Shown here in pieces: positions 28,238-63,077 of a stretch of 64,000 bases of DNA. How positions within the stretch are numbered: position 1 is the first letter of the stretch; the number at the start of each line of letters is the position of its first letter. The notes under the pieces are model-generated. The model had not been told where the DNA came from. It searched no databases and saw nothing but the letters and a program-made list of their open reading frames with translations. The position numbers were made by a program, and so were the translations under genes. This DNA is from Buchnera aphidicola (Uroleucon sonchi) (GTDB lineage Bacteria > Pseudomonadota > Gammaproteobacteria > Enterobacterales > Enterobacteriaceae), in assembly GCF_011035165.1 (NCBI RefSeq), contig NZ_CP047588.1, positions 124,001 to 188,000 of the forward strand. Reading direction: 5' to 3'.

Positions 28238-29176
28238 TTAAATTTTAAAATATTCTTTTACTTTAATAATATCTTGATAAATTTGATTTTTTAATTCTGT
28301 TCGCGAAGAAAAAATTTTTTCATCACGTATTTTTTTATATATAAAAATTTCTATATACTTACCATATAAATCTATATTTTTATTAAACAGATGTACTTCA
28401 AGTAATCTTGTATTTTGTTTATTTTTTATAAAAGTAGGTTTTATGCCAATATTAGATATTCCTAAACAATATTTTTTTATAGAATATTTTATTTTTACAG
28501 CATATACTCCATTGCTTAATAAATGTTTTTCATTGATACGTACATTTGCTGTCGGAAAGTCTAATGTGCGTGCAATTTGATCTCCATGTATTACTTTGCC
28601 AGTAATACTAACTGGACGACCAAGTAAGTTGGTAGCCAATTTAATATTATTTTTAGATAATGCTATTCTAATATTAGTGCTGCTAATTTTTCCTGAGTGT
28701 GTATATAGTGATCGTATTATAATTATATTAAATTGATATTGTTGCCCCATTTCTTTTAAAAGATTAATATTTCCATTTCTTTTACATCCAAATTTAAAAT
28801 CATCTCCTATTACTATATATTTAACATTTAGTTTATTTATAAGTATATTGATAATAAATTCTTTTGCATTTAAAGATTTAAAAGATTGGTTAAATCTAAT
28901 ACATAAAATTGTATCAATATTATAAGAGGAAATCCATTTTACTTTGTCACGAAACTTCATAATTCGCATAGGAATATCTTTTTTTTTTAAAAATTCTAAT
29001 GGTTGAGGTTCAAATAGAATGACTATGCTTAATAATTTATATTTTTGACTTATTTGATATACTTGAGTCAATAATTTTTGATGACCTAAATGTATTCCAT
29101 CAAATTTTCCAATCGTAATAACTGAATTAAAATTTATATGTTTAATATTATGAATACCTCGTATAATTTGTATCAT
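28238..29176 (-). CDS. ribF: Bifunctional riboflavin kinase / FAD synthetase
   Basis: Converts riboflavin to FMN and then FAD. The 312-residue protein has the N-terminal nucleotidyltransferase domain (GKFDGIHLGHQKLL, VIGDDFKFGCKRNGN, SSTNIRIAL) and the C-terminal kinase domain (GKVIHGDQIARTLDFPTANV, NGVYAV, LLEVHLFNKN). FMN is the cofactor of NuoF, encoded 8 kb away. It is the first gene of the ribF-ileS-lspA unit and is divergent from rpsT. A small inverted repeat, AATACAG-CTAAA-CTGTATT (29193-29211), lies just ahead of its ATG. Confidence 0.96.
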   Translation of the reverse strand: MIQIIRGIHNIKHINFNSVITIGKFDGIHLGHQKLLTQVYQISQKYKLLSIVILFEPQPLEFLKKKDIPMRIMKFRDKVKWISSYNIDTILCIRFNQSFKSLNAKEFIINILINKLNVKYIVIGDDFKFGCKRNGNINLLKEMGQQYQFNIIIIRSLYTHSGKISSTNIRIALSKNNIKLATNLLGRPVSITGKVIHGDQIARTLDFPTANVRINEKHLLSNGVYAVKIKYSIKKYCLGISNIGIKPTFIKNKQNTRLLEVHLFNKNIDLYGKYIEIFIYKKIRDEKIFSSRTELKNQIYQDIIKVKEYFKI

Positions 29177-33121: not shown

Positions 33122-33502
33122 ATGATTGAACAATTATTAATTAATAAAGAATGTCTATCGTTTTTTGTTTTTATAATTGCTTCTTTAGGTTTATGTGGTT
33201 TTATGCTTATGTTAAGTTGGTGTTTAGGGGGTAGATCTGTATCTAGAAACAAACATACACCTTTTGAATCAGGAATTATTGCTTCTGATAATGCTTGTCT
33301 TCATTTTTCTGTAAAATTTTATTTAATTGCTATGTTTTTTGTTATTTTTGATGTTGAATCGTTATATTTATATGCTTGGTCAGTTAGTATTCGTGAATCT
33401 GGATGGGGAGGATTTTTTGAATCCTTTGCTTTTGTAACGTCTCTTTTAATAGCTTTATTTTATTTAATTCGTATTAAAGCATTAAATTTGATATCTTCTT
33501 AA
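33122..33502 (+). CDS. nuoA: NADH-quinone oxidoreductase subunit A
   Basis: First gene of the 13-gene complex I operon. The product has 126 residues (147 in E. coli) and three transmembrane segments. It contains the conserved cytoplasmic-loop GGRSVSRNKHTPFESG and the acidic membrane motif FDVESLYLYAW. The shorter length reflects a missing hydrophilic C-terminal tail. AAGGAA precedes the ATG. It is divergent from dnaK, with 300 bases between the two starts. Confidence 0.95.
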   Translation: MIEQLLINKECLSFFVFIIASLGLCGFMLMLSWCLGGRSVSRNKHTPFESGIIASDNACLHFSVKFYLIAMFFVIFDVESLYLYAWSVSIRESGWGGFFESFAFVTSLLIALFYLIRIKALNLISS

Positions 33503-33551
33503 AAAAAAGAATCAAATATTATTTAATATTTAATTTTTACTGGAAAATAAA

Positions 33552-34226
33552 ATGAAATATACTTTAACTCGAATAAATACACGTAATGTTCATCAAAAGT
33601 ATCCACAACAAGAATCGCAATCCGTTGCAGATCCTGTTGAGCAGTATATAAAAAAAAATATTTTTATTGGCAAATTAAGTAAAATATTACATAAAATAGT
33701 TAATTGGGGTAGAAAAAATTCTCTTTGGCCTTATAATTTTGGATTATCTTGTTGTTATGTCGAAATGGTTTCTTCTTTTACTTCTATTCATGATGTCGCG
33801 CGTTTTGGGGCTGAAGTGTTACGTGCATCTCCGAGACAAGCTGATGTTATGGTTATTGCAGGTACTCCATTTATTAAAATGGCTCCAGTTATTCAAAGAT
33901 TATATGATCAAATGTTAGAACCGAAATGGGTTATTTCAATGGGAGCATGTGCAAATTCTGGAGGTATGTATGATATTTATTCTGTTGTTCAAGGTATAGA
34001 TAAATTTTTACCAGTTGATATTTATATTCCCGGTTGTCCTCCTCGTCCTGAAGCGTATATGCAAGGTTTAATGTTATTGCAAAAACTCATTAATGAAGAA
34101 AGACGTCCATTATCATGGATAGTAGGAGAACAAGGTATATATCATAAAAAAATGACATCTGAAAAAGATCAAAAAAGAAATAAAAGAATTAATGTCGTAA
34201 ATCTGCCTACTTCAGAAAAAATTTAG
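33552..34226 (+). CDS. nuoB: NADH-quinone oxidoreductase subunit B
   Basis: Carries the terminal [4Fe-4S] cluster N2 that passes electrons to quinone. The 224-residue protein (220 in E. coli) has the tandem cysteines in GLSCCYVEM and the further ligands in [12 protein letters not shown] and [14 protein letters not shown]. The first 45 or so residues and the C-terminal tail are variable; the core is highly conserved. A 125-base spacer follows, unusual within this operon, containing the inverted repeat TATACTA-TTT-TAGTATA (34324-34340). Confidence 0.97.
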
Positions 34227-34351
34227 ATTAATATGATTGTTTTAATATTAAATATTAATTATTAATCAATATTTTTTTATAAAATTATATTAATATAACT
34301 TTAATAAAATTATAAAAGGTTAATATACTATTTTAGTATAATGAGACATGT

Positions 34352-36154
34352 ATGGTTAATTTAATTAACAAAAAAAACAGTTTTACATCTAAAAACAAAT
34401 CATGTGATTATGAAAAAGATTTAGTAGTACAAAGTTTATTTGATGTATTTGGAAAAGAATTATGCATGTATCAAATAACTTTAACTGGCTTTCCTATCAT
34501 CTGGATTGATAAAAAAATATTAATTGATGTTGGAAGATTTTTATATGATATGTGTGAGCCTTATACAATGTTGTATGATTTACATGGTGTTGATGAAAGA
34601 CTAAGATTACATCGTGACAAACTGCCACATGTTGATTTTTCAGTTTTTTATCATTTAATATCTATAGAACGCAATTCTGATATTATGATTAAAGTACCAT
34701 TATTAGAAGATAATTTAATTTTACCAACTTTTACTAATTTATTTCCGAATGCTAATTGGTACGAACGTGAAGTATGGGATATGTTTGGGATTGTTTTTGA
34801 TCAACACCCTAATTTAACTCGTATTATTATGCCTAATACGTGGGAAGGGCATCCATTGCGAAAAAATTATTCTGCTAGAGCAACAGAATATGAACCTTTT
34901 TTTTTGAATCAAACAAAAGAAGATTTTGAAATGGAAAATTTAAGATTTAAACCTGAATTATGGGGAATGCAACCAAAACATGATAATGTAGAATTTATGT
35001 TTTTGAATTTAGGTCCTAATCATCCTTCTGCTCATGGTGCTTTTAGAATTGTTCTTCAATTAGATGGAGAAAAGATTATCGATTGTGTTCCAGATATTGG
35101 ATACCATCATCGTGGAGCTGAAAAAATGGGCGAACGTCAATCATGGCATAGTTATATTCCATATACTGATCGTATTGAGTATTTAGGAGGTTGTGTTAAC
35201 GAAATGCCTTATATTTTAGCTGTAGAAAAATTAGCTAATATTTCAGTTCCAGAAAGAGTAGAAGTTATTAGAGTAATGATGTCAGAATTATTTAGAATTA
35301 ATAGTCATCTTTTATATATTTCTACTTTTATTCAAGATGTTGGTTGTATGACTCCTGTATTTTTTGCTTTTACTGATCGTCAAAAAATTTATGATTTAAT
35401 TGAAGCAATTACTGGCGCTCGTATGCATCCAGCTTGGTTTCGAATTGGTGGAGTTGCAAATGATTTACCGAAAGGATGGAATGTATTGTTAAAAGATTTT
35501 TTAGATTGGATGCCAAAAAGATTAAAATATTATATTAATTCAGCATTAAAGAATAGTATTTTAATTAATCGTTCAAAAAACATTGCTAAATATGATAAAA
35601 AATCAGCTTTAGCATGGGGTGTAACTGGGGCAGGTTTACGTGCGACAGGAGTAAATTTTGATATACGAAAAATGAGACCGTATTCTGGATATCAAAATTA
35701 TGATTTCGAAATACCAGTTGGATCAGGAATTAGTGATGCTTATTCACGAGTAATGCTTAAAGTAGAAGAAATTTATCAAAGCCTCATTATTTTAAAACAG
35801 TGTTTAAATAATATGCCAGAAGGTCCTTTTAAATCTTCTAATCCATTAACGACTCCTCCTTCTAAAGAATCTGTTTTACAAAATATTGAAACTATGATTA
35901 CACATTTTTTACAAGTTTCTTGGGGTCCAGTTATACCAGATAATGAAAGTTTTCAAATGATTGAAGCAACAAAAGGAATTAATAGTTATTATTTAATTAG
36001 TGATGGTGGTACGATGAGTTATCGTACAAGAATACGTACACCTAGTTTTCCACATTTACAGCAAATACCTTCCGTAATTCGTGGTAGTTTAATATCAGAT
36101 TTAATTGTATATCTAGGTAGTATAGATTTTGTTATGTCAGACGTGGATAGATAA
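34352..36154 (+). CDS. nuoC: NADH-quinone oxidoreductase fused subunit C/D
   Basis: Single 600-residue NuoCD fusion, the form found in E. coli and relatives, of the same length. Residues about 1-190 are the NuoC part ([37 protein letters not shown]), and about 200-600 the NuoD part ([41 protein letters not shown]-type region, ending FVMSDVDR). The NuoD part contributes the histidine and tyrosine near the quinone head-group. Two out-of-frame ATGs lie just upstream; the ATG at 34352 begins MVNLINKK, close to the E. coli start. Confidence 0.97.
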
Positions 36155-36156
36155 TT

Positions 36157-36665
36157 ATGTGTAAAAAAAAAGTTATATACGAGAAATTTCTATCAAGTTT
36201 CAATTAACTAATGAAGAAATAAATGAGATAGAAAATCAAAAAAAATATTATGAAAATTTTCGTGCTATTTCAATAGAAGCATTAAAAATTGTACAAAAAA
36301 AACGTGGTTGGATCTCTGATCAAGCCATTTATGCAATTGCTGAAATATTACAAATTCCTCCTAGTGAAATAGAAGGAGTAGCTACTTTCTATAGCCAAAT
36401 TTTTCGTCAACCAGTTGGTCGTAACATCATTCGTTATTGTGATAGTGTAGTTTGTTTTTTAACTGGCTATAAAGAAATTAAATCAACGTTAGAAAAATTG
36501 TTAAAAATTAAAATAGGAGAAACAACTAAAGATAATCAATTTACTTTATTACCTATTTGTTGCTTAGGGAATTGTGATAAAGGTCCAACCATAATGATTA
36601 ATGAAGATATATATTCTTTCTTAACTCCAGAGTCTATACCAAGTATATTAGAGCGTTATAAATGA
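36157..36665 (+). CDS. nuoE: NADH-quinone oxidoreductase subunit E, frame broken at A9
   Basis: Carries [2Fe-2S] cluster N1a in the NADH module. ATG 36157 opens MCKKK, then the frame stops at TAA 36205; adding one A to the A9 run (36163-36171) restores a 169-residue protein (166 in E. coli). Beyond the break the reading frame is open and well conserved for about 155 codons: [34 protein letters not shown], the cluster cysteines in CDSVVC and [10 protein letters not shown], ending SILERYK. No ATG, GTG or TTG start in the corrected frame could serve instead. Its stop overlaps the nuoF start by 4 bases. Conservation of the rest suggests a working gene rescued by polymerase slippage, or a one-base sequencing error. 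Confidence 0.9.
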
Positions 36666-37996
36666 ATAATAATTTACGTACTGCAGAAACCCATCCTTTA
36701 ACATGGCGTTTAAGAGATGATCAAAAAACTGTTTGGATTAAAGAATATTTTTCAAAATGTGGTTATCAAGCATTAAAAAAAACATTGAAAAACATATCAC
36801 CTCAAGATGTAATTAATATAATTAAAGAATCAGGTCTTAAAGGTAGAGGAGGGGCCGGTTTTTCTACTGGAGTCAAATGGACTTTAATGTCTCAAAATAG
36901 CTATAAAAAAAAAAGTCGTTCATATTTAATATGTAATGCTGATGAAATGGAACCCGGAACATATAAAGATAGACTATTAATAGAAAAAATACCTCATCAA
37001 TTGATTGAAGGAATAATATTATCAGCATATGCATTAAATGTTTCTTATGCTTATATTTTTTTGAGAGGTGAATATATTCAAGCTGAAAAAATTTTACATC
37101 AATCTATTAAAGAGGCAAGTTTTTTTAATTTAATTGGATCGAATATTTTAGGAAGCGATTTTAATTGTGAACTGATTTTGCATACTGGAGCTGGACGTTA
37201 TATTTGCGGAGAAGAAACAGCACTGATTAATTCCTTAGAAGGCCGTAGAGCTAATCCTAGATCTAAACCACCTTTTCCTGCATCATTTGGATTATGGGGA
37301 CAACCGACTTGTGTTAATAATGTTGAAACATTATCTAATGTTCCAAATATAATATTAAATGGAACAGATTGGTATAAAAATTTATCTTATAGTACTGATG
37401 CTGGGACTAAATTAATGGGTTTTTCAGGAAAAGTCAATAACCCAGGTGTTTGGGAAGTGCCTTTTGGTATTACTGCTCGTGAAATTTTAGAAGATTATGC
37501 TCATGGTATGAAATCTGGTTGTTTTTTAAAAGCTTGGCAACCAGGAGGTGCAGGAACAGATTTCTTAATTGAAAAACATTTAGATTTACCGATGGATTTT
37601 GATAGTATACGTCAAGCTGGTAGTCGATTAGGTACTGCTCTTGCAATGGCAGTAGATCATAACACTAACATGGTTGATCTTGTATATAATATAGAAAAAT
37701 TTTTTTCTCGAGAATCTTGTGGCTTATGTACTCCATGTAGAGATGGCTTGCCATGGATCGTAAAAATATTAAAAAGTTTAAAAGAAAATAAAGGAAATAA
37801 AAATGATATTAAAGATTTAGAAAGATTATGTATTCACTTAGGTCCTGGTAAAACATTTTGCGCGCATGCTCCGGGAGCAATAGAGCCTTTACAAAGTGCT
37901 ATAAAATATTTTCGATCTGAATTTGAATCAGGTATTAATTTTCATAACGTAAATTTAAATAAAAAAATTATTGGCATTCAATCTAATCATATTTAG
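36662..37996 (+). CDS. nuoF: NADH-quinone oxidoreductase subunit F
   Basis: NADH-oxidising flavoprotein of complex I, 444 residues (445 in E. coli). NADH site [19 protein letters not shown]-binding region [33 protein letters not shown], and the [4Fe-4S] N3 ligands [12 protein letters not shown] with the later cysteine in TFCAHAPGA. The start overlaps nuoE in an ATGA. Translation of nuoF may partly depend on ribosomes finishing nuoE, so the nuoE frameshift could reduce its expression unless slippage occurs. Confidence 0.98.
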
Positions 37997-38058
37997 TTTG
38001 AAAATGAAATACTTATTTTTGAATTAAATTTTATATATAAATTCAAACATTTTGGAAC

Positions 38059-40794
38059 ATGTTGTATATGGCTAATATTTATATTGACAATGTCATGTAC
38101 GTTGTTAAAGAATCAGATAACTTATTACAAGCTTGTTTATCATTAGGAATTGATATTCCTTATTTCTGTTGGCATCCCTTATTAGGCAGTATAGGAGCAT
38201 GTCGTCAATGCGCTGTCATGAAATATAAGAACTTAGAAGATAATGCCACCAAAAGTGGTCAATTAATTATGTCCTGTATGACCCCTGTAATTGATGGCAC
38301 TATCATTTCTGTTAATGATACTGAATCAAAAATTTTCAGAAGCGCTATAACTGAATTGTTATTAACTAATCATCCGCATGATTGCCCTGTATGTGAAGAA
38401 GGAGGGCATTGTCATTTACAAGATATGACGGTTATGGTGAAACATAATATTCGAAATTATAGATTTAAAAAAAGAACACATAATAATCAATACTTAGGGT
38501 CTTTTATAAAACATGAAATGAATCGTTGTATTACATGTTATCGTTGTGTGCGATATTATAATGATTATGCGGATGGAACTGATTTTGGAGTATATGGATC
38601 TAATAATAATATTTATTTTGGTCGTATAGAAGACGGAATATTAGAAAATGAGCATTCAGGGAATTTAACAGAATTATGTCCTACCGGTGTATTTACTGAT
38701 AAAATGCATTCTAAGAAATATAGCCGTAAGTGGGATATTCAGTATGCTCCGAGTATATGTCAAAATTGTAGTATTGGATGTAATATTAGTATTGGAGAAC
38801 GTTATGGAGAAATTTGCAGAATAGAAAATAGATATCATGAAAAAATTAATCATTATTTAATTTGTGATCTTGGTCGTTTTGGTTACTCCCATACATGTTT
38901 AAGTCAACGTCCTAAAAATCCTGTGTATAGTAATAAAAAATATTCAACTATATTAACTTTTGATGAGGCTATTCAAAAAGGAGTAGATTTTTTTAAAAAA
39001 TTTAAACGTATAATTGGAGTTGGCTCTACAAGAGCAAGTATAGAAAATAATTTTGCATTACAAGAATTAGTTGGAAAAAATAATTTTTCTAATGGAATGT
39101 CGAATAAAGAACAAATGTGTGTAAAATTAATTATAGAATTTTTAAAAAATAATTTTATATATACTCCATCATTAAGAGAAATTGAAAGTTATGATGTAAT
39201 TTTAGTAATAGGAGAAGATTTAACAAAAACATCTCCTCGTGTAGCTTTAGCTGTACGTCAAGCAGTGAAAAATAAAGCAAAAGAAATAAATTATTTAAAT
39301 GGCATTCCAAAATGGAATTCATCTCCTAGTATTCATATGTCTGAAGAATTAAAAAATTCTTTATTTATATTGCACACACATGAAAATAAATTAGATGATA
39401 TTTCTGAGTGGTCTTATTTTGCACCTATTGACAAGCAAATTAATTTTGCATCTGCTATTGCTCATGAAATAAATGAAAACTTGCCGCCAGCATATGAATT
39501 GAATTCTATATTGCAAAAACAAGCATCATTAATTGCTAAGCGATTAATTTCATCTAAAAAACCTTTAATTATTTCAGGTTCACATTCTTTTGATAGTTCA
39601 ATGATACAAGCATCTATCAATATAGCCAGTGCTATTAAAAATTATGCACCTAGTAATCATGTTGGAGCAGCTTTTTTTACTCTATCTTCTAATTCTTTAG
39701 GAACAGAATTAATTGGAGGCATGTCTATAGAATCTGTCTTGCAAGAAATTGAAAACAAAACAGCAGATGCAATAGTTTTTATGGAATATGATATATATCG
39801 TTTTATATCTGAATACGATTGTTATAATCTTTTTAAAAATCAAGAAAATATTATGACTTTAGATCATCAATATACAAAAACTTATCAAAAATCTGGATTA
39901 ACTTTGCCATCAAAAAATTTTACTGAAAGTTCTGGAACAGTAATTAATTTTGAAGGAAGAGCTCAACGTTTTTTTCAAGTTTATGATCCTAATTTTTATA
40001 ACAATGATTATTGTCTTTTTGAAAGCTGGAGATGGTTGCATTTTATTAAATCTAAAATTGATAGCACTAAGATATCTTGGCTGAATTTAGATGATGTAAT
40101 TAATGATTATACTAAAAAATATTTAATTTTTGAACCAATCAAATTAAAAGAGCTAGATTCAAGTTATCGTATTTATGGGCAAAAAATTTCTCGATTGCCT
40201 ATTCGAAGCAGCGGCAGAACAGCTTTACGTTCTCATATTGATATTCATGAACCTCGTCAACCTATCGATGTTGATACGATGTTTGCTTTTTCAATGGAAG
40301 GTTACAATCAACCCAATCAATCTATTGCTCATATTCCTTTTGCTTGGTTTCCAGGATGGAACTCTCCTCAATCATGGAATAAATTTCAAAAAAAAATAGG
40401 TGAAAATTTAGTTTCTTCTCATTCCGGGGTTCATATTTTTAAAAACAATCAAATTAATATCAATATACATTCAAAAAATATTTCTAATAATTCTCAAAAA
40501 GAAAAATATTTTTATATTATACCGTATTATCATCTTTTTGGAAATGAAGAACTGACGCAATATTCATCTATAATCAAAAAAAATATACCTATAGAATATG
40601 CTTTAATTAGTTTAGAACTTGGAACTCTATTAAAATTAAAAAATAATTCAATACTTCAATTCAATTGTTTAAATAAAAATTATCGTTTAGCAATTCAATT
40701 TTCTAAATATTTAAGTAAAAATCAGATAGGTCTACCATTGGGAAGAAAAGGATTTCCTATTTCTTTAATTGGTAAAAAAATTAAATTTTTATAG
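38059..40794 (+). CDS. nuoG: NADH-quinone oxidoreductase subunit G
   Basis: Large iron-sulfur subunit, 911 residues (908 in E. coli). The N-terminal ferredoxin-like part has the [2Fe-2S] ligands ([23 protein letters not shown]), the His/Cys cluster ([16 protein letters not shown]) and the N4-type ligands ([16 protein letters not shown]). The extra cluster N7 found in E. coli is kept (CQNCSIGC and the later cysteine in YLICDLGR). The molybdopterin-like remainder is more diverged. Start is ATG 38059 or the in-frame ATG 38068 (MANIYID); neither has a strong ribosome-binding site. It follows nuoF by 62 bases. Confidence 0.96.
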
Positions 40795-40805
40795 GAATTG
40801 ATTAT

Positions 40806-41774
40806 ATGATCAGATTTGAAGAAAACATATTAGAAATAATTTTTTCTCTTTTCAAAATTTTTTTTCTTTTATTTTTAATAGTTTTTTTTGCTGCTTTATT
40901 AAGTGTAATTGAACGAAGATTATTAGCATTATTTCAAAATAGACATGGACCTAATCGAGTAGGTTGGATGGGTAGTTTGCAAATATGCGCAGATATGATT
41001 AAAATTTTATTTAAAGAAGATTGGATTCCTTCGTTTAGTAAAAAATATATTTTTGTTATTTCACCTATAATAGCTTTTGTGTCTTTGTTATGTGTAGTTC
41101 CTATTATTCCATTTACATCTAATTTTTATATTATTGATTTAAATATAGGTATTTTATTTTTTTTAATGATGGCTAGTTTATCTGTTTATTCTATACTTTT
41201 TGCTGGTTGGTCTAGCAATAATAAATATTCTCTATTAGGTGCTATGCGCGCATGTATTCAAACATTAAGTTATGAAGTGTTTTTAGGTTTATCACTCATG
41301 GGTGTAGTTGCGCGTGCAGGATCATTCACAATATCAGATATTATAAAAAGTCAAATAGAAATATGGAATATTTTCCCTCAGTTTTTTGGTTTTTTAACTT
41401 TTTTTATAGCAGGTTTAGCTGTTTGTCACAGACACCCATTTGATCAACCTGAATCTGAGCAAGAATTAGCAGATGGTTATCATATTGAATATTCAGGAAT
41501 GAAATTTGGTTTATTTTTTATTGGTGAATATATTTCTATGATTGTTATTTCTTCCTTAATAGTAACTATGTTTTTTGGCGGATGGTTAGGTCCTTGGTTG
41601 CCTGGATTTATTTGGTTTTTTTTAAAAACGATATTTTTTATTTTTATGTTTATTCTCATTAGAGCATCATTACCAAGACCAAGGTATGATCAAATATTAT
41701 TATTTGGATGGCAATATTGTTTACCGATGACATTATTAAATTTATTTTTAACAGCTTTTTTTATTTTACTATGA
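40806..41774 (+). CDS. nuoH: NADH-quinone oxidoreductase subunit H
   Basis: Membrane subunit at the junction of the two arms, forming the quinone chamber. The 322-residue protein (325 in E. coli) has about eight transmembrane segments and the conserved [19 protein letters not shown], the loop [21 protein letters not shown] with its acidic cluster, and [17 protein letters not shown] lies ahead of the ATG. Confidence 0.97.
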
Positions 41775-41794
41775 ATTTCATTAGAGATTAATAT

Positions 41795-42337
41795 ATGACA
41801 CTAAAAAATATTATTATTGGGTTTTATACACAAATCAGAAGTTTATTGATGATTATTTCTAATATTTTTTCAAAACCTGAGACTAGATTATATCCAGAAG
41901 AAAAATTAAATCTTGCTCCTCGTTATAGAGGTCGTATTATATTAACTCGTAATTTAGATGGAAGAGAACGTTGTGTAGCTTGTAATTTATGCGCAGCAGT
42001 TTGTCCTGTTGATTGTATTTCTTTACAAAAATCTGAAAAAATAGATGGTCGGTGGTATCCAAAATTTTTTCGTATTAACTTTTCTCGTTGTATATTTTGT
42101 GGTTTATGTGAAGAAGCATGTCCTACAGCTGCGATTCAATTAACTCCTGATATTGAATTATCTGATTTTAAAAGACAAGATTTGGTGTATGAAAAAGAAG
42201 ATTTATTAATTTCAGGACCAGGAAAATATCCAGATTATAATTTTTATAATTTTTCCGGAGTAGCTATTGCAAATAAAAAAATAGGTGATTTAGATTTTGA
42301 GTCTAAACCTGTTAATGTAAAGGATTTATTACCATAA
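41795..42337 (+). CDS. nuoI: NADH-quinone oxidoreductase subunit I
   Basis: Carries two [4Fe-4S] clusters (N6a and N6b) on the way to N2. The 180 residues equal E. coli. Ligands: [15 protein letters not shown] (about residues 60-74) and [15 protein letters not shown] (about 99-113). The N-terminal amphipathic helix that docks it to the membrane arm is present. It is followed by nuoJ 10 bases later with an AAGGAG site. Confidence 0.97.
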
Positions 42338-42347
42338 GGAGATTAAT

Positions 42348-42860
42348 ATGAATTTGATTTTTTATGCATTATCTTTGATAGCTATAATATCTACCATTTT
42401 AACAATTATTCAAAAAAACGTAATATATTCTTTATTATATTTAATTATTTCTTTTTTATCAATATCTGGAATATTTTTTTATCTTGGAGCTTTTTTTGCT
42501 GGAGCTTTAGAAGTTATTATTTATGCAGGAGCTATTATAGTATTATTTGTTTTCGTAATTATGATGTTAAACATTAATCAAGAGAATAATATAAAAAAAG
42601 AAAATTTTTTAAAACCTATTTATTGGATTGGACCTAGTATTTTATCATTAATATTATTTATTTCTATGACTTATGTTATTTTTTATTTAAAAGATAAAAC
42701 AATTAATAAATTATTAATTAATTCAAAAATTGTTGGTATAAGTTTATTTGGTCCTTATATATTACTCGTTGAGTTATCTTCAATTCTTTTATTATCCGCT
42801 TTAGTTATTGTTTTTCATATTGGAAAAAACTATGAAAATAAATCAAAATTTTATAATTAG
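42348..42860 (+). CDS. nuoJ: NADH-quinone oxidoreductase subunit J
   Basis: Antiporter-linker membrane subunit of 170 residues (184 in E. coli) with five hydrophobic helices. The conserved third helix GALEVIIYAGAIIVLFVFVI is intact. The C-terminal part after the last helix is shorter than in E. coli. It is preceded by AAGGAG and sits between nuoI and nuoK as usual. Confidence 0.95.
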   Translation: MNLIFYALSLIAIISTILTIIQKNVIYSLLYLIISFLSISGIFFYLGAFFAGALEVIIYAGAIIVLFVFVIMMLNINQENNIKKENFLKPIYWIGPSILSLILFISMTYVIFYLKDKTINKLLINSKIVGISLFGPYILLVELSSILLLSALVIVFHIGKNYENKSKFYN

Positions 42861-42883
42861 TTTTTAACTCAAGGTAATACTTT

Positions 42884-43186
42884 ATGATTTCTTTATTCCA
42901 CGGATTGTTTTTATCGTTAACATTATTTATTTTAGGTTTAACTTCTTTAATGATAAGACGTAATATATTTTTTTTATTAATTAGTTTAGAAATAATGGTC
43001 AATGCTGCTGGATTAGCATTAATAACAGTTGGCAGTTATTGGAAACAAGTAGATGGACAAATAATGTATATATTTGTAATCACTTTAGCAGCATCAGAAG
43101 CTAGTATTGCTTTAGCATTATTATTACAACTTTATAAACGTAATAAAACATTAAATATTGATATTTTAAATGAGATGAAAGGATGA
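42884..43186 (+). CDS. nuoK: NADH-quinone oxidoreductase subunit K
   Basis: A 100-residue, three-helix membrane subunit, the same length as E. coli. Both proton-path glutamates are present, in [12 protein letters not shown] (about residue 36) and [17 protein letters not shown] (about residue 72). AAGG lies upstream. The TGA stop overlaps the nuoL ATG by 4 bases, so the two are translationally coupled. Confidence 0.97.
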
Positions 43187-45024
43187 ATATTATTTTTTTC
43201 ATAACTCTTTTTCCACTGTTAGGATTTCTTTTTTTATCTTCTATACAAGGTATGATGTCTAAAAAAAATATATCAAATTTAGGAATACTTACAATATTAA
43301 TATCTTTTTGTACTACTTGTGTTTATGGTTGTCTAATTCACAAACATCATAATCAAATTTTTACACAGATATTATGGAATTGGTTATCTATTAATAATTT
43401 AAAAATTAATTGTAGTTTTTTTATAGATGGATTATCTATAAGTATGTTATTTTTAATTACAGGTATTGGTTTATTAGTGCATATTTTTTCTTCCTGGTAT
43501 ATGGAAGATAAAGAAGGCTATTCGCGATTTTTTGCTTATACTAATTTATTTATAGCAAGCATGTCTATTTTAGTACTTGCTGATAATTTTTTATTTATGT
43601 ATTTAGGATGGGAAGGAGTTAGTGTTTGTTCTTATTTACTCATTGGGTTTTATTATACTAAATATAATAATTATCGATCTGCTTTTAAAGCGTTTATTTT
43701 AACTCGTATTTCTGATGTTTTTTTGATTATTGGAATATTTTTGATATATCAAAAATATAATACTTTTAATTTTCAAGAAATTAAGTTTTTATCAACATTT
43801 TTAAGTGTAGAAAACATTTTTGATTTAAATTATATTACATTGTTTTTATTAATTGGAGTTATTGGAAAATCAGCACAATTGCCTTTGCAAACTTGGTTAT
43901 CTGATGCTATGGTTGGTCCTAGTCCTGTTTCAGCTTTAATTCATTCAGCGACTATGGTAACCGCAGGTGTATATTTAATTGCAAGGACACATTTTTTATT
44001 TTTACTTACTCCAGATATATTATATGTTATAGAATTATTAAGTATTTTAACAATATTTACTGCTAGTATATCAGCTTTATTTCAAAATGATATAAAACGC
44101 ATATTAGCTTATTCTACTATGAGTCAAATTGGTTATATGTTTTTAGCTTTAGGAGTGCAAGCATGGAGCGCAGCTATTATACATTTAATTATGCATGGAA
44201 TATTTAAAGCATTATTATTTTTATCTGCTGGATCATTAATCATTTCGTGTCAAAATCAAAAAAATATATTTAAAATGGGCGGATTAAGAAAAAAATTGCC
44301 TTTTTTATATATTAATTTTTTAATTGGAGGAGGATCTTTAGTTGCATTTCCTATATTAACTTCTGGTTTTTATAGTAAAGATGATATTTTGTTCAATATT
44401 TTGCAACACGGAGATTTATATTTTTTTTACGTTTCATTATTTTGTTCTTTTTTAACCGCTTTGTATACATTCAGAATGATTTTTGTAATTTTTCACGGCA
44501 ATGATCATAATACTAATTTAGTAATTCCCAATAATAATTTAAAACATCATATTCCATTGTGTATTTTATTATTACTATCTACTGTATTAGGATCATATAT
44601 ATCATTTCCATTATTTAATATTTTTCCTAATTCTTATTTATTAGATAATAATAAGTTTATTTTAGAGATCATATCTAGCATATTATCTATTTCTGGAATA
44701 TTTTTATCTTATTTCTTATGGATTAAGCACATTTTTTCAATACAAAAATATTATAAATATTCATTTATACAAAAAATACATTACTTTTTTTTGAATGGAT
44801 GGGGTTTTGATTATGTTTATAATATTTTTTTTGTAAATATTTATTTATATATATCTAAGATATTCTCTTATGATCCATTTAATAAATTTATGAATTATCT
44901 TTTTAAAATAGTAAAAATATGTAACTTTTATTTACTAAAAAGTAGCAATGGTTATGTAAGATGGTATGTATCATCTATGATTTTAGGTATTAATGCAATC
45001 TTTATACTAATCCTTTTATATTAA
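43183..45024 (+). CDS. nuoL: NADH-quinone oxidoreductase subunit L
   Basis: Distal antiporter-like proton-pumping subunit, 613 residues as in E. coli, with many transmembrane helices and a long C-terminal extension that includes the lateral helix. Core signatures: [19 protein letters not shown] (with the pumping glutamate), [51 protein letters not shown], and [16 protein letters not shown] 123-base spacer without visible signals separates it from nuoM. Confidence 0.97.
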
Positions 45025-45147
45025 AAGAAAGATATAATAATTTTTTATTTAATTTATTAATACTATAAATAATACATCATATATTTTATTGATTAAATAG
45101 TTATCATTAATTAAATAATTATATTAAATAATAGGAATATACTAATA

Positions 45148-46635
45148 ATGTTACTTTCTTTTTTAATTATCATTCCATTTTTAAGTAGTATTTTTTCTTT
45201 TTGTTTTTATAAAATAAAAAAAAATATGTCTCGTTGGATTGCTTTATCAGGAACAATTTTAATTTTATTAATTACGATCATCATATTCATTGATAATAAT
45301 AGTTTTTTGAATATTAAAAAGAATTTAATATGGAATCATCAATTAATTATACCCTGGATTACACGATTTGGCATTGAGTTTCATATCGCAATTGATGGAT
45401 TCTCGATCATTATGATTTTATTTTCTTTAATATTATCTATTATAGCTATAATATGTTCTTGGAATGAAATTAAGCAGAATGAAGGTTTTTTTTATTTTAA
45501 TTTTATGTTAGTGGTTACTGGTATTATGGGTATTTTTATGGCCTGTGATTTATTTTTATTTTTTTGTTTTTGGGAAATTATATTATTTCCAATGTATTTT
45601 TTAATTGTGCTATGGAGTAATCAAAATACAAAAAATAAAATTGTTATTGCTGCTAATAAGTTTTTTATATATGGACAAATATCTGGTTTAATATTATTGT
45701 CATCTATTTTATTAATAGTTTTAAGTTATTACAAAAGCACTAATATATTGACTTTTAATTATAATATATTATTGCACATGCATATTAATCAAAAAATAGA
45801 ATATATTGCAATGATAGGTTTTTTTTTAGCATTTATTATAAAAATGCCGATTGTGCCGTTTCACGGATGGTTACCAAATGTACATGCTAAATCTATTTCT
45901 TGTGGATCTGTTGAAATCATTGGTATATTATTGAAAACTGCTCCTTATGCATTAATAAGATATAATTTAATGTTATTTCCAAATGCCAGTAAGACATTTG
46001 CTCCAATAGCAATATTTTTAGGTTTATTTAGTATATTTTATGGAGCTTGGATAGCTTTTTCACAAGAAAATATTAAGAAATTTATTGCCTATTCTTCGAT
46101 TTCTCACATGGGATTAATTTTAATTGCTATTTATAGTACAAGTGAAATAGCGCTGCAAGGTGTCATAATTCACATTTTGTCAAGTAGTTTGACTTCTGCA
46201 GCTTTATGTATTGTATCTGGACAATTATGTAAATATTTTCAAACTCAAAATATTAATTCTATGGGAGGTTTATGGTCTCATATTTATTGGCTTCCAGGTT
46301 TATCTTTATTTTTTTCTTTATCAAATTTAGGAATTCCTGGAACTGGTAATTTTATTGGTGAATTTTTGATCTTATCTGGAATGTTCAAAATATTTCCATA
46401 TTTTGCAATTTTAGGAACAATTAGTATAATTTTTTCTTCTATTTATTCGTTAAATTTTATACAAAATATCTTTTATGGTTCATGTGCAAAACATAGTTCT
46501 GTTATATTTATTCAAAAAAGAATTTTATGCATATTGATAATAATAGCAATAATGATAATTTTCTTAGGTTTATATCCACAAGCTATTATAAATATTTCAT
46601 ATGATTCTATATATAATATTTATAAAAGAATTTAA
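45148..46635 (+). CDS. nuoM: NADH-quinone oxidoreductase subunit M
   Basis: Second antiporter-like subunit of the membrane arm, 495 residues (509 in E. coli). The pumping residues Glu144-equivalent (CFWEIILFPMYFL), the lysines in IIKMPIVPFHGW and GILLKTAPY, the histidine in SISHMGLILIAI, and the glutamate in GTGNFIGEF are kept. Two conserved positions differ: the histidine of the E. coli IAHGLS motif is serine (LSSSLT, around 46183) and the aspartate of HGWLPDAH is asparagine. The C-terminal tail is short. Confidence 0.96.
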   Translation: MLLSFLIIIPFLSSIFSFCFYKIKKNMSRWIALSGTILILLITIIIFIDNNSFLNIKKNLIWNHQLIIPWITRFGIEFHIAIDGFSIIMILFSLILSIIAIICSWNEIKQNEGFFYFNFMLVVTGIMGIFMACDLFLFFCFWEIILFPMYFLIVLWSNQNTKNKIVIAANKFFIYGQISGLILLSSILLIVLSYYKSTNILTFNYNILLHMHINQKIEYIAMIGFFLAFIIKMPIVPFHGWLPNVHAKSISCGSVEIIGILLKTAPYALIRYNLMLFPNASKTFAPIAIFLGLFSIFYGAWIAFSQENIKKFIAYSSISHMGLILIAIYSTSEIALQGVIIHILSSSLTSAALCIVSGQLCKYFQTQNINSMGGLWSHIYWLPGLSLFFSLSNLGIPGTGNFIGEFLILSGMFKIFPYFAILGTISIIFSSIYSLNFIQNIFYGSCAKHSSVIFIQKRILCILIIIAIMIIFLGLYPQAIINISYDSIYNIYKRI

Positions 46636-46669
46636 TTACTTAATTTTATAAATAAGGTTTTAATTAAAA

Positions 46670-48133
46670 ATGATAATAAATTTACAACAATTAACAGCTT
46701 TGCTGCCTTTGTTGATTATGATATTTACTGCAATGACAATAATGTTATCTATTGCTTATAATCGAAATCATTTTTTTGTTGTGTTATTAAGTATTTTTGG
46801 ATTAATCTTTTCATTTTTTTCTTTATATTTATTAATACCAATTTTACCTATAGATATTTATGGTTTATTTCATGTGACTCATTATTCTATTTTATATATG
46901 AGTATGATTATATTCTCTAGTATTAGTACCTGTATCTTTGGATATGAATGGTTAAAAAATTTTTCTTATAATAAAGAGGAATTTTATTTTTTGATTATTA
47001 TTGCTCATTTAGGAGCAATGTCATTAATTATATCTAATCACATGGCTTCATTTTTTATAAATATTGAAGTATTATCATTACCAATTTTCGGTTTAATTGC
47101 TTATTCGTCGTATCAAAAATATTCTTTAGAAGCTGCTTTAAAGTATATTATTTTATCTGGTGTATCATCTAGTTTTTTATTATTTGGTATAGCGTGGGTT
47201 TATTCAATTTCTGGATCGTTAAATTTTGCATCAATTATTCCTCTTGTGAATAGCCTTGCTTACCATGAAGAATTGATTGTATTATTTGGAATGAGTATGA
47301 TACTGTTATCAGTATTATTTAAACTATCTATTGTTCCATTTCATTTATGGACTCCTGATATTTATCAAGGCACTCCTGCGTCTGTATTATCTTTTTTTTC
47401 TACTGCAGGTAAAATTGCTATTTTTAGTATGTTATTAACTTTTTTATCACATATTTCTTATTCAAATAAAACAATACATTTTTTATTATCATTAATAATT
47501 GTTCTTTCGATGTTATTTGGAAATTTAATGGCTATTTTTCAAAATAATATTAAAAGATTATTTGGTTATTCTTCTATATCTCAAATAGGTTATCTTTTTA
47601 TTATATTTTTGGCATCAAATAAAAATTATTATTTTTCTTTAGAAGCTAGCGTAATATATCTTTATAGTTATCTATTTAGTAATATTGCATTTTTTGGTAT
47701 TATCAATTTGATAACTAATCATAATCAAACTAATAATGTAAATACATTACATAGATATCAAGGATTGTTTTGGTCTAATCCACTTATATCCATGATACTA
47801 ACTTTAGTTCTTTTATCTTTATCTGGTTTTCCTTTAACATTTGGATTTATTAGTAAATTTTATATATTATCTATTATCATTCATGAACATTTATGGATAA
47901 TAGGTTTAGTATTTTTAATTAGTACCTTGCTGGGTTTTTATTGTTATTTAAGAGTCATTTTAAATTTGTATTTACAACCATTACAACTAGTAAGTAATGA
48001 GATTAGTATATCTCGTCACTGGTTATATACTCCATCTGGAGTAATAATATTTATTTCAGGAATATTTTTATTGATTTTAGGCATGTATCCAAATCAATTA
48101 ATTAATTTAGTACAATTGTCTATAAAAGTTTAA
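46670..48133 (+). CDS. nuoN: NADH-quinone oxidoreductase subunit N
   Basis: Third antiporter-like subunit and last gene of the operon; 487 residues (485 in E. coli). NIEVLSLPIFGLIAY carries the glutamate of the proton channel, and KLSIVPFHLWTPDIYQGTP, FSTAGKIAIFSML, FGYSSISQIGYLF and LSLSGFPLTFGFISKF follow. All antiporter-like motifs look intact. A 174-base spacer leads to folC; no terminator hairpin was recognised in it. Confidence 0.97.
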   Translation: MIINLQQLTALLPLLIMIFTAMTIMLSIAYNRNHFFVVLLSIFGLIFSFFSLYLLIPILPIDIYGLFHVTHYSILYMSMIIFSSISTCIFGYEWLKNFSYNKEEFYFLIIIAHLGAMSLIISNHMASFFINIEVLSLPIFGLIAYSSYQKYSLEAALKYIILSGVSSSFLLFGIAWVYSISGSLNFASIIPLVNSLAYHEELIVLFGMSMILLSVLFKLSIVPFHLWTPDIYQGTPASVLSFFSTAGKIAIFSMLLTFLSHISYSNKTIHFLLSLIIVLSMLFGNLMAIFQNNIKRLFGYSSISQIGYLFIIFLASNKNYYFSLEASVIYLYSYLFSNIAFFGIINLITNHNQTNNVNTLHRYQGLFWSNPLISMILTLVLLSLSGFPLTFGFISKFYILSIIIHEHLWIIGLVFLISTLLGFYCYLRVILNLYLQPLQLVSNEISISRHWLYTPSGVIIFISGIFLLILGMYPNQLINLVQLSIKV

Positions 48134-51128: not shown

Positions 51129-51998
51129 TTAATTAAACATTTTATGTAATGGTGAAATATTAACACTTTTCGTAATAAAGCTTGTTGTATCTTTTGGTAT
51201 TAGTTTAAATATTTTTTGTGCAGATTGTTTATCATTAAATTCAGAAAATATACAAGAACCGGTCCCTGTCATTCGAAATGGAGCATATGAAGATAATATA
51301 GAAATTAATTTTTTTATTTTAATAAATTTATTTTTTGCTATATCTTCAAAAACGTTTTTGAATGGTAAATGCAATAGTTCTTGAATAGATTTTTTAGAAC
51401 TATATTGCATTAAACTAAGATTTTCAAACATGTTTTTTGTTGAAATAGTAGTATTAGGATAGACTATTAAATACCATTTTTCTTGCGTTTGAATCGGATG
51501 AAATATATCGCCTATTCCTTCAATAATAGCTGTTTTTCCCATAATAAAACCAGGTATATCTGATCCTATTTCTAGACTGAATAAAGATAATTCTTCTAAA
51601 GTGAATTGTGTATTCCATAATTGATTCAATAGAATTAATGTAGTTGCTGCATTAGATGATCCCCCTCCTAATCCACTGCCTATAGGTATATTTTTTTTTA
51701 AAAATATTTTTGCCCCATTTAGAGAATTATGTAATCTTTTATAAAAAATTCCTTTCTGTTTTAATAATTTAGCAGCAGTAATAATACTGTTTTTTTTATT
51801 TAAAAGATTTTTGTTTTTAGTAAATAATTCAATATAACCTGTGTTATTAGGAATAATTTTTAATGTGTCTCCGTAATTTAGAAATTGAAATAATGTTTGT
51901 ATATTATGATATTTATTTGAACGTATACCTGTGACATATAAAAACAAATTAATTTTTGCAGGTGATGGCCACCATGTATAGATTGTTTTAATTTTCAT
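51129..51998 (-). CDS. ispE: 4-diphosphocytidyl-2-C-methyl-D-erythritol kinase
   Basis: GHMP kinase of the MEP isoprenoid pathway. The 289-residue protein (283 in E. coli) has WPSPAKINLFLYVTGIR at the N-terminus, the glycine-rich ATP loop PIGSGLGGGSSNAATTLILL (about residues 100-119), the aspartate in SLEIGSDIPGFIMGK and RMTGTGSCIFSEF near the end. lolB and hemA, close by in E. coli, are absent. It is divergent from prfA. Confidence 0.96.
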   Translation of the reverse strand: MKIKTIYTWWPSPAKINLFLYVTGIRSNKYHNIQTLFQFLNYGDTLKIIPNNTGYIELFTKNKNLLNKKNSIITAAKLLKQKGIFYKRLHNSLNGAKIFLKKNIPIGSGLGGGSSNAATTLILLNQLWNTQFTLEELSLFSLEIGSDIPGFIMGKTAIIEGIGDIFHPIQTQEKWYLIVYPNTTISTKNMFENLSLMQYSSKKSIQELLHLPFKNVFEDIAKNKFIKIKKLISILSSYAPFRMTGTGSCIFSEFNDKQSAQKIFKLIPKDTTSFITKSVNISPLHKMFN

Positions 51999-55082: not shown

Positions 55083-55886
55083 TTATTGAGTAATTGGTAA
55101 ACAACGTTTATGTAATGTTTTAAAGTAGATTTCTTCTATTTTTTTTTGTATTTTACAATCTATTTTTTTTCCTTCTAAGTAGGAATCAATAGAATTGTAC
55201 GTAATTCCTAAAACAGATTCATCATCTTGTTGCGGATGATTATCTTCTAAATCAGCCATAGGTTTTTTAAAATATAGATTTTTGGGAGAATGTAATTCTT
55301 GTAATAATAAACGACCTTGTCTTTTATTTAACTTATAAATAGGATTAATATCTGTTCCACCATCTCCAAATTTTGTAAAAAATCCAGTTAAATGCTCTGC
55401 TGCATTTCCTGTTCCAACAACCAGACCTTGATTCATGGCAGCAATACTATATTGTACTTTCATTCTTTCGCGAGCTTTTTCATTACCGCGTACATAATCT
55501 GATATAATAATTCCTGATTTTTGTAAAGATTTTTCGCTTCTTAAGATTGATGGTTTAATGTTAATATTAAAAATTTGATCTGGTTTAATAAAATTTATTG
55601 CATCCTGACAGTCTTGTTCATCAGTTTGTATTCCATATGGCATTCTGACTGCAATAAATTTATAATTAATATTTTTTGTCTCATATCTTAATTGTTGAAC
55701 AGTAATTTGGCATAATTTTCCTGTTAATGTAGAGTCTTGTCCTCCACTAATACCAACTATTAAAGATCTTAAAGTAATATTGTGTAGCAAATAATTTTTT
55801 AAAAAATTAACACAATTTTTAATTTCTATTTTAGGTATAATTTTTGGTTTAACTCCCATTAATTTTATAATTTCTTTTTGTATCAT
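55083..55886 (-). CDS. nadE: NH3-dependent NAD+ synthetase
   Basis: Last step of NAD synthesis, amidating deamido-NAD with ammonia. The 267-residue protein (275 in E. coli) has the ATP-PPi motif [13 protein letters not shown] (about residues 45-57), [52 protein letters not shown] and [16 protein letters not shown]. The last eight or so residues of the E. coli protein are missing; it ends at LPITQ. No glutaminase domain is attached. It is divergent from ackA with only 53 bases between the starts. Confidence 0.95.
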
Positions 55887-60791: not shown

Positions 60792-63077
60792 CTATATAGT
60801 ACATGAACCGTTGTCGCAAATATTTTCTGATACTGAATTAAATATAATATTTTGATGATCTTCAGAGCCATCACGAGTATTTTGATAATATAGGGTTTTA
60901 ATGCCAAGCTTATAAGATAGAAGTAAATCGTATAATAGTTGCTTCATAGGAATCTTATTATTTGTAAATTTTTTTGGATCATAATTAGTATTGACTGAAA
61001 TCGATTGATCAATAAATTTTTGCATAATGCTAACTAATTCTAAATATCCTGTATTATTAGGTATATTCCAAAGTAATTCATATTGTGATTTAAGTTTTTT
61101 GTATTCTGGTACTACTTGTCTTAATATTCCATCTTTTGATACCTTAATACTAATAAAACCTCTTGGAGGCTCAATACCATTAGTTGCATTAGCAATTTGA
61201 GAAGATGTTTCTGAAGGCATTAAAGCAGACAATGTTGAATTCCTTAAACCATATTTTTTAATTTTTAAACGTAATGCATCCCAATCTAAATGTAGCGGTT
61301 CATTACATATTGCATCAATATCTTTTTTATATGTATCAATAGGTAATTTTCCTAAATAATAATTAGTATGATGAAATAAAGCACATTTTCCTTTTTCTTT
61401 TGCTAATTCACAAGATGCATTTAATAAGTAATATTGTATTGCTTCAAAAGTTTTATGTGTTAAATTTTTTGCACTACCATCTGAATAACGAACTTTATTT
61501 TTAGCTAAATAATAAGCAAAATTTATTACACCGATTCCAAGAGAACGTCTTGATATAGCTGATTTTTTTGCCGCTAATATTGGATAATTTTGATATTCTA
61601 ATATTTCATCAAGTGCGCGTACTGATAATATTGATAATTCTTTTAATTCTTTCAGATCTTGGATTAGTCCTAAATTTAATGCTGATAATGTACATAACGC
61701 AATTTCTCCTTTAGTATCATAAATATCATTCAATGCTTTAGTTGGTAAGGTAATTTCTAGACATAAATTAGATTGTTTGATTGGAGATAAGATAGGATTA
61801 AATGAGCTATGTGAATTACAATGATCGACATGTTGTATATAAATTCGTCCAGTTGAAGTTCTTTCCTGCATGATTAAAGAAAATAATTCTAATGCTTTAA
61901 TAGTTTTTTTTCTTATTTTAGTATTCTTTTCATAATTTAAATATAATTCTTCAAATTTTTTTTGATTAGAAAAAAAAACTGTGTATAAATCAGGCACATC
62001 AGATGGACTAAATAATGTTATTATTCCTCTTGACAACATTCTTTCATACATTAATTTATTAATTTGTATTGCATAATCTAAATGACGTACTCTATTATCT
62101 TCTACTCCTCTATTATTTTTTAAGACTAATAAACTTTCTACTTCAAAATGCCAGATTGGATAGAAAATAGTTGCAGCCCCTCCCCTAACACCTCCTTGTG
62201 AGCATGATTTAACGGCACTTTGAAAATATTTATAAAAAGGTATACAACCGGTATGAAATGCTTCACCATTTCTAATTGAACTCCCTAATGCTCGAATTTG
62301 TCCAGCATTAATCCCGATTCCTGCACGTTGAGAAACATATTTTACAATAGCACTAGCAGTAGCATTAATAGAATTTAAATTATCAGCACATTCGATTAAC
62401 ACACAAGAACTAAATTGACGAGTTGGAGTTCTAACTCCAGACATAATTGGAGTTGGTAATGAGATTTTAAATGTTGAAATCGCATTATAAAAACGTTGAA
62501 TATAATCCATACGAATATTTTTAGGATATTGAGAAAATATACATGCAGATATTAAAATATAAAGAAATTGCGCACTTTCATATATTTCACCACTAATACG
62601 ATTTTGTATTAAATATTTACCTTCTAATTGCTTTACAGCAGCATATGAAAAATTCATGTCTCTCCAATGATCAATAAAAGAATCCATATATAAAAACTCT
62701 GAATGAGAATAGTTATATAATAATTTTTCATCATATTTGCCTAATGTGATCATTTTTTTTACATGATCATATAATTTTGGTGGTGTAAATTGACCATAAG
62801 CTTTTTTTCTTAAATGAAAAATAGCTAATCTTGCTGCCATATATTGATAGTCTGGTGTGTCTTGAGAAATTAAATCGGCTGCAGCTTTAATAATTGTTTC
62901 ATGGATATTAATAGTTGTAATATTGTTATAAAATTGAATTCGAGAACATAGTTCTACTTGCGATATAGATACGTCATGTAATCCTTCTGATGCCCAATTT
63001 AATACTTTGTGAATTTTATCTAAATTAATTTTTTCTTTTCTTCCATCACGTTTAGTAACAAAAAGATTATTTTTCAT
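60792..63077 (-). CDS. nrdA: Ribonucleotide reductase class Ia, alpha subunit
   Basis: Reduces ribonucleoside diphosphates to deoxy forms. The 761 residues equal E. coli NrdA. The N-terminal ATP-cone that senses dATP is present (VTKRDGRKEKINLDKIHKVL). Active-site cysteines appear in FSSCVLIEC, SNLCLEI (with its glutamate) and ALCTLSALNLG, and the two C-terminal shuttle cysteines in CDNGSCTI. RAGIGINAGQIR and GIEPPRG are also kept. It follows gyrA on the minus strand with an 80-base A+T-rich spacer. Confidence 0.98.
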   Translation of the reverse strand: MKNNLFVTKRDGRKEKINLDKIHKVLNWASEGLHDVSISQVELCSRIQFYNNITTINIHETIIKAAADLISQDTPDYQYMAARLAIFHLRKKAYGQFTPPKLYDHVKKMITLGKYDEKLLYNYSHSEFLYMDSFIDHWRDMNFSYAAVKQLEGKYLIQNRISGEIYESAQFLYILISACIFSQYPKNIRMDYIQRFYNAISTFKISLPTPIMSGVRTPTRQFSSCVLIECADNLNSINATASAIVKYVSQRAGIGINAGQIRALGSSIRNGEAFHTGCIPFYKYFQSAVKSCSQGGVRGGAATIFYPIWHFEVESLLVLKNNRGVEDNRVRHLDYAIQINKLMYERMLSRGIITLFSPSDVPDLYTVFFSNQKKFEELYLNYEKNTKIRKKTIKALELFSLIMQERTSTGRIYIQHVDHCNSHSSFNPILSPIKQSNLCLEITLPTKALNDIYDTKGEIALCTLSALNLGLIQDLKELKELSILSVRALDEILEYQNYPILAAKKSAISRRSLGIGVINFAYYLAKNKVRYSDGSAKNLTHKTFEAIQYYLLNASCELAKEKGKCALFHHTNYYLGKLPIDTYKKDIDAICNEPLHLDWDALRLKIKKYGLRNSTLSALMPSETSSQIANATNGIEPPRGFISIKVSKDGILRQVVPEYKKLKSQYELLWNIPNNTGYLELVSIMQKFIDQSISVNTNYDPKKFTNNKIPMKQLLYDLLLSYKLGIKTLYYQNTRDGSEDHQNIIFNSVSENICDNGSCTI

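Follow-up and report, generated by a model that had tools for sequence, protein, structure and literature searches.

A one-base shift behind the nuoE start codon at a conserved A tract in Aphidinae Buchnera

Slippage rescue of frameshifts in poly(A) tracts, and the long-term upkeep of such shifts, are established ideas for Buchnera and Blochmannia (PMC3017870, PMC3164680, PMC5009743, PMC4389277; statements on cited papers refer throughout to parts of their texts). Here we consider nuoE, a gene of the complex I operon in a 64,000-nucleotide stretch of Buchnera aphidicola (Uroleucon sonchi) DNA (the window: bases 124001-188000 of a single-contig 614,349-bp genome, an Aphidinae-type Buchnera chromosome), whose start codon lies one base out of frame with the rest of the gene at a run of nine A's.

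In Blochmannia, eleven shifted genes were counted over three genomes (PMC3017870), and the frameshifts described by Wernegreen et al. 2010 resemble that of nuoE in being kept across species without gene decay, although they belong to this other genus. According to PMC3017870, PMC3164680 and PMC5009743, Tamas et al. 2008 described Buchnera and Blochmannia genes in which transcriptional slippage rescues a frameshift at a poly(A) tract; the cases, backed by RNA evidence, are a histidine gene in an ant symbiont and cell wall genes in a single aphid symbiont. The nuoE case is similar in its one-base shift, its A tract and its setting in an AT-rich insect symbiont gene under selection; however, its shift affects one and the same gene and tract, right behind the start codon, in 34 of the 36 genomes compared, and is known from DNA alone.

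Two translational systems are also comparable. Non-AUG starts, such as the ATT start of infC, are implied for nuoE by many public NuoE records of the genus, but nuoE lacks a shared start-like codon 5 in the NuoE body frame, and the ATT at codon 8 is ordinary among isoleucine columns. We take dnaX of E. coli to share with nuoE an A-rich slippery run and the -1 direction; nuoE differs in having no conserved structure downstream of the tract, and in depending on the shift for its complete protein instead of for an additional, shorter one. The dnaX -1 ribosomal frameshift is mentioned in PMC3017870.

The nuoE shift is real and old, and is an unusually deep case of a known kind of event. We did not find the genus-wide case described: among the titles and abstract starts covered, none concerned a nuoE shift in Buchnera, and the word nuo is absent from the main texts of PMC3164680, PMC4389277 and PMC3017870 and from part of PMC5009743.

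Anatomy of the nuoE start and its conservation

The elements of the locus are as follows.

36157..36159, + strand: nuoE ATG, unchanged in the genus (0 changes, 36/36 genomes)
36163..36171, + strand: A9 tract, the proposed slippage site; at least nine A's in 36/36 genomes, 1 substitution over the nine sites in the whole tree
36157..36207, + strand: short zero-frame open reading frame (ORF), 16 codons and a stop (TAA at 36205), read without slippage
36171..36665, + strand: NuoE body frame, 164 sense codons and a TGA stop, open throughout
34352..36154, + strand: nuoCD, the 5' neighbour (NF008728, 1112.5 bits); ORF near full length in 36/36 genomes
36662..37996, + strand: nuoF (ORF list, family model); its ATG overlaps the nuoE stop (ATGA, 36662-36665)

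In the window genome, the nuoCD TAA is followed by two bases and the nuoE ATG, one codon separates this ATG from the A9 tract, and the NuoE frame is one base off the ATG frame. The shift is thus located in an A homopolymer, as in slippage-rescued symbiont genes. The first-pass annotation of this DNA had placed a frame break at the A9 tract, with the ATG frame stopping at 36205 and the body open to 36665, and had noted the lack of an alternative ATG, GTG or TTG start; both observations hold, as the first 45 codons of the body frame in the window genome contain no such codon. Its identification of the gene stands as well: the body matches NCBIfam NF005722 with 240.6 bits (cut-off 141) and TIGR01958 with 185.2 bits (cut-off 142.4), the gene sits between nuoCD and nuoF, and the translation contains YCDSVVC and CCLGNC, which we take to hold the cluster cysteines of the NuoE [2Fe-2S] subunit. 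The closest NuoE among those of the genus group is that of the U. ambrosiae symbiont (91%).

The comparison set comprised 36 genomes of the genus group that includes the window genome. In all of them an ATG lies 1-4 bases past the nuoCD stop (33 genomes have exactly 2 bases). Nine or more consecutive A's follow, beginning 6 bases after the A of this ATG in 35 genomes and 7 bases after it in one. The run is A9 in 26 genomes, A10 in 7, and A11, A12 and A13 in one each. In 34 genomes the same one-base offset separates the frame of the ATG from that of NuoE, which is otherwise open; here the runs have 9 to 12 A's, and our reading of the sequences is that the longer ones come from edge substitutions. 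The distance from the ATG to the body is constant in the shifted genomes, except for a 3-base addition in G024, and the zero-frame ORF has 6, 7, 12, 16 or 17 codons. Hence the comparison of the run in related strains, suggested at first pass, upholds the break but shows that it is not a feature of this genome alone.

The two in-frame genomes are G001 (S. graminum) and G005 (probably Muscaphis stroyani), and a public 170-aa NuoE from a further genome (P0043) may, from its sequence, be a third such case. The shifted genomes include symbionts of Aphis, Rhopalosiphum, Uroleucon and Acyrthosiphon, hosts that we presume to represent the aphid tribes used for dating. PMC3164680 assumes a split of these tribes 65 million years ago. 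The shift seems to have persisted for tens of millions of years, and the best reading is that it was fixed in an ancestor of Aphidinae Buchnera and retained since in most lineages. As the basal branches of the 36-genome tree have support of only 50-54, the in-frame state of G005 could be either a repair or original.

Selection on the tract and on the gene

The unusual degree of tract conservation was assessed on two blocks around the operon (20 kb and 17 kb, 37 kb in total) aligned from the 36 genomes. Among 163 (73 + 90) groups of coding A/T runs with length of at least nine, the nuoE run is the sole group kept in 36/36 genomes; the next-best groups are kept in 28, 26, 25 and 24 of 36, and the next in the first block in 20. 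Starting from the 24 coding runs of at least eight in the first block of the window genome, the nuoE run is kept at nine or more in 35/35 other genomes, the next one in 19/35.

Parsimony changes were counted on a tree built from nuoCD, nuoF and nuoG. The single change over the nine tract sites compares with 14, 5 and 2 changes at the three positions of the preceding codon, and with a mean of 7.7 changes at fourfold sites (n = 468). Third positions of lysine columns (n = 228) have on average 4.1 changes, and 3.5% of them are unchanged; for columns with lysine in at least 35/36 genomes (n = 64) these values are 3.0 and 9.4%. The tract comprises three consecutive unchanged third positions. Lysine columns that are AAA in 36/36 genomes number five.

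The body of the gene is under purifying selection. Omega fits and codon tables used 33 shifted genomes (the two in-frame genomes and the one with the 3-base insertion being left out) and gave omega of 0.128 for codons 15-60 and 0.112 for codons 60-160. No internal stop occurs in the NuoE body in any of the 36 genomes. The remaining ORFs of the nuo operon are open in the window genome, and eleven other operon ORFs (nuoN not among them) are near full length in 36/36 genomes. These results bear out two earlier claims, that the gene is unlikely to be dead and that the other complex I frames are intact, and nuoE is probably a working gene.

At the same time, an ORF of at least 92% of the nuoE length with an ATG, GTG or TTG start is present in 5/36 genomes and absent from 31/36. 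The five are the in-frame G001 and G005, G014 and G029 with an ATG at body codon 5, and G013 with a TTG start within the nuoCD end, up to which the body frame contains no stop.

The arrangement ATG-NNN-A9 occurs in eleven other places of the window genome, none of which proved to be a shifted start like that of nuoE: four are in frame with an ORF of at least 120 codons, at five the surrounding ORF is in a different frame and continues past the site in both directions, and two meet no long ORF.

Possible routes to the full-length protein

On balance, we consider it probable that full-length NuoE is made from the ATG because some rounds of expression insert one extra base at the A tract. The likeliest agent is RNA polymerase. 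Slippage, the polymerase as its agent and an effect on NuoF are what we infer from the observed anatomy, its conservation and the selection on the body. The polymerase would slip backward on the tract and yield a mixed mRNA pool, in which slipped messages would give full-length NuoE (169 residues in the window genome) and unslipped ones a peptide of 6 to 17 residues. Slippage on 9-A runs in bacteria is stated in PMC5009743, and PMC3164680 cites an inactivated locus of the Rhopalosiphum padi Buchnera that is rescued via transcriptional slippage. Single-base additions within A/T runs, the type of event required here, make up most of the insertions seen in Buchnera transcripts, and they increase exponentially as the runs lengthen (PMC5574713). 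Body codons 5-7, which lie 5' of any shared alternative start, have omega of 0.29, with a log-likelihood (lnL) better by 3.0 at omega 0.3 than at 1.0 (kappa fixed at 2); they look translated in the body frame, weakly favouring the ATG with a base added at the tract.

Several points weigh against this reading. The test on codons 5-7 concerns three codons picked post hoc, and it weakens when widened (codons 4-7, omega 0.37, lnL gain 2.2; codons 3-7, omega 0.47, gain 0.7); for codons 8-14 the fit ended at 1.000, where the likelihood was worse than at omega fixed to 0.3, and it was not used. The two in-frame genomes need no added base, nor do G014 and G029 with their in-frame ATG at codon 5 or G013 with its TTG. 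As the NuoE family model covers nothing before about body codon 11, a shorter NuoE might work. The Buchnera RNA study reports no frame-restoring errors (PMC5574713); as codon 5 is ATG in the A. pisum Tokyo genome (G029), the tract may there lie outside the annotated gene. Finally, A-runs near the start codon of two other genes are kept in 28/36 and 25/36 genomes, better than most, and hence part of the nuoE tract conservation may serve initiation; these two genes are near full length in 35/36 and 36/36 genomes.

If a base is indeed added by the polymerase, the slip rate could also set the amount of NuoF, since the nuoF ATG overlaps the nuoE stop (the string ATGA is found at this junction in 36/36 genomes), and unslipped messages may lower NuoF too. 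One-A insertion should rank among the commonest mutations in such a tract, yet by our reading of the alignments none of the 36 genomes has a simple A10 repair; thus, the shifted state may be useful and not merely tolerated. Tentatively, and with doubt prevailing, one may go further and propose a programmed slippage valve, in which selection would keep the nuoE start out of frame at 9-12 A's across Aphidinae Buchnera, and the polymerase slip rate would set the amount of NuoE. By way of the nuoF start that overlaps the nuoE stop, it would also set that of the whole NADH-oxidising module of complex I, replacing lost regulators. If slippage does occur, nuoE would be a very old and widely shared instance of a gene that relies on a copying error to be expressed. 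Aphid symbionts yield bulk RNA, so the question of slippage is answerable from reads.

The first-pass annotation had favoured RNA polymerase slippage, and this agent does fit best, but two translational explanations retain a share of the probability. The first of them, unlikely though not negligible, is that NuoE begins at ATT, ATA or a similar codon at body position 5 or 8, the ATG and the tract being a leader or a leftover. ATG, GTG or TTG codons within the first 20 body codons occur in only nine shifted genomes (at codon 5, 13 or 14), so there is no shared start of this type, and hence a start elsewhere would need a non-AUG codon in most genomes. Such a start agrees with the many public NuoE records of the genus that have 162 aa (beginning at codon 5) or 159 aa (beginning at codon 8), with ATT at codon 8 in 33/33 shifted genomes compared, and with the family model, which requires nothing 5' of approximately body codon 11. 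Codon 5 is ATT, ATA or ATG in 10 of the 33 shifted genomes, but in most of the 33 it is not start-like (TTT or TTA in 22, TCA in one). The ATT at codon 8 does not stand out as a marked start, since 14 of 106 isoleucine columns, taken from eleven neighbouring ORFs, are equally uniform, being ATT in at least 35/36 genomes. The apparent constraint on codons 5-7 in the body frame also argues, weakly, against this start, which in addition leaves the invariant ATG and the kept A9 unexplained.

Ribosomal -1 slippage, in which ribosomes that initiate at the ATG would move one base backward on A AAA AAA and so enter the NuoE frame, seems rather improbable. The direction is the required one, the heptamer A AAA AAA is present in the zero frame, and the zero-frame codons are three AAA, so that tandem re-pairing is possible; moreover, PMC4363877 documents the sliding of E. 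coli ribosomes on repeated AAA codons. On the other hand, the same source reports that in vitro, in an E. coli cell-free system, there is little sliding with A9 or A10, whereas it is robust with A11. For roughly 100 bases past the tract, RNAalifold gave a consensus fold of the 36 sequences with no pairs, and so no conserved RNA structure there, although for the window genome by itself a weak hairpin (-6.9 kcal/mol) is possible. It could also be objected that seven A's would do, yet nine are kept in 36/36 genomes; this is a weak point, because conserved lysine columns also keep their first two positions.

That nuoE is a pseudogene, with complex I working without NuoE or lost, is very improbable: the 31 genomes lacking a near full-length ORF with a usual start would suit a dead gene, but the low omega, the body free of stops and the intact operon ORFs stand against it, and long-term purifying selection largely refutes it. 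Homopolymers are prone to sequencing error, and an error of sequencing or assembly had been the main alternative at first pass, but it is excluded because the same offset recurs in 34/36 genomes at runs that differ by edge substitutions.

Operon setting, public records and other genomes

The wider setting of the gene includes the following features.

approximately 33122-48133: nuo operon; nuoB, CD and E to N identified with family models
33122-33502: nuoA, assigned on position alone (no match at 1e-20)

For nuoM and nuoN, the best family models, one each, score under the cut-off. A scan for promoters yielded 5 sites where 4.8 were expected, and a single terminator-like site, on the opposite strand, compares with an expectation of 0.2.

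Most NuoE records of the genus that were opened start at codon 5 or 8, with M replacing another residue, and annotation can conceal such shifts behind ATT or ATA start codons. Three records are frame-corrected 169-aa forms (Brachycaudus tragopogonis, Protaphis terricola and Hyalopterus amygdali), hence the depositors of these records saw the shift. Three Buchnera genomes carry two NuoE records each (P0015, P0034 and P0040 versus P0022, P0033 and P0047), and in each pair one record is frame-corrected with 169 aa, whereas the other, of 159 or 163 aa, has a non-AUG start.

Outside the genus, 56 small genomes were picked from 392 family genomes, and 50 of them were examined. In 49 of these 50 symbiont genomes there is an in-frame ATG, GTG or TTG 5' of the conserved NuoE part. 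The exception (L195, genome G346) has a separate nuoE frame break at an A9 run (1507-1515), further inside the gene.

Runs of at least nine A's at 55871, 55053 and 60718 of the window are kept in 28, 26 and 25 of the 36 genomes, respectively. Two of the three closely follow a start codon, a hint that the genus favours A-rich gene starts.

Near the operon, the gene at 28238-29176, 5' of it, is short or broken in 3/36 genomes, including that of the U. ambrosiae symbiont. The ORFs at 60792-63077 and 51129-51998 are near full length in only 25/36 and 30/36 genomes, respectively, so that breakage or truncation may affect other genes of this block in several species.
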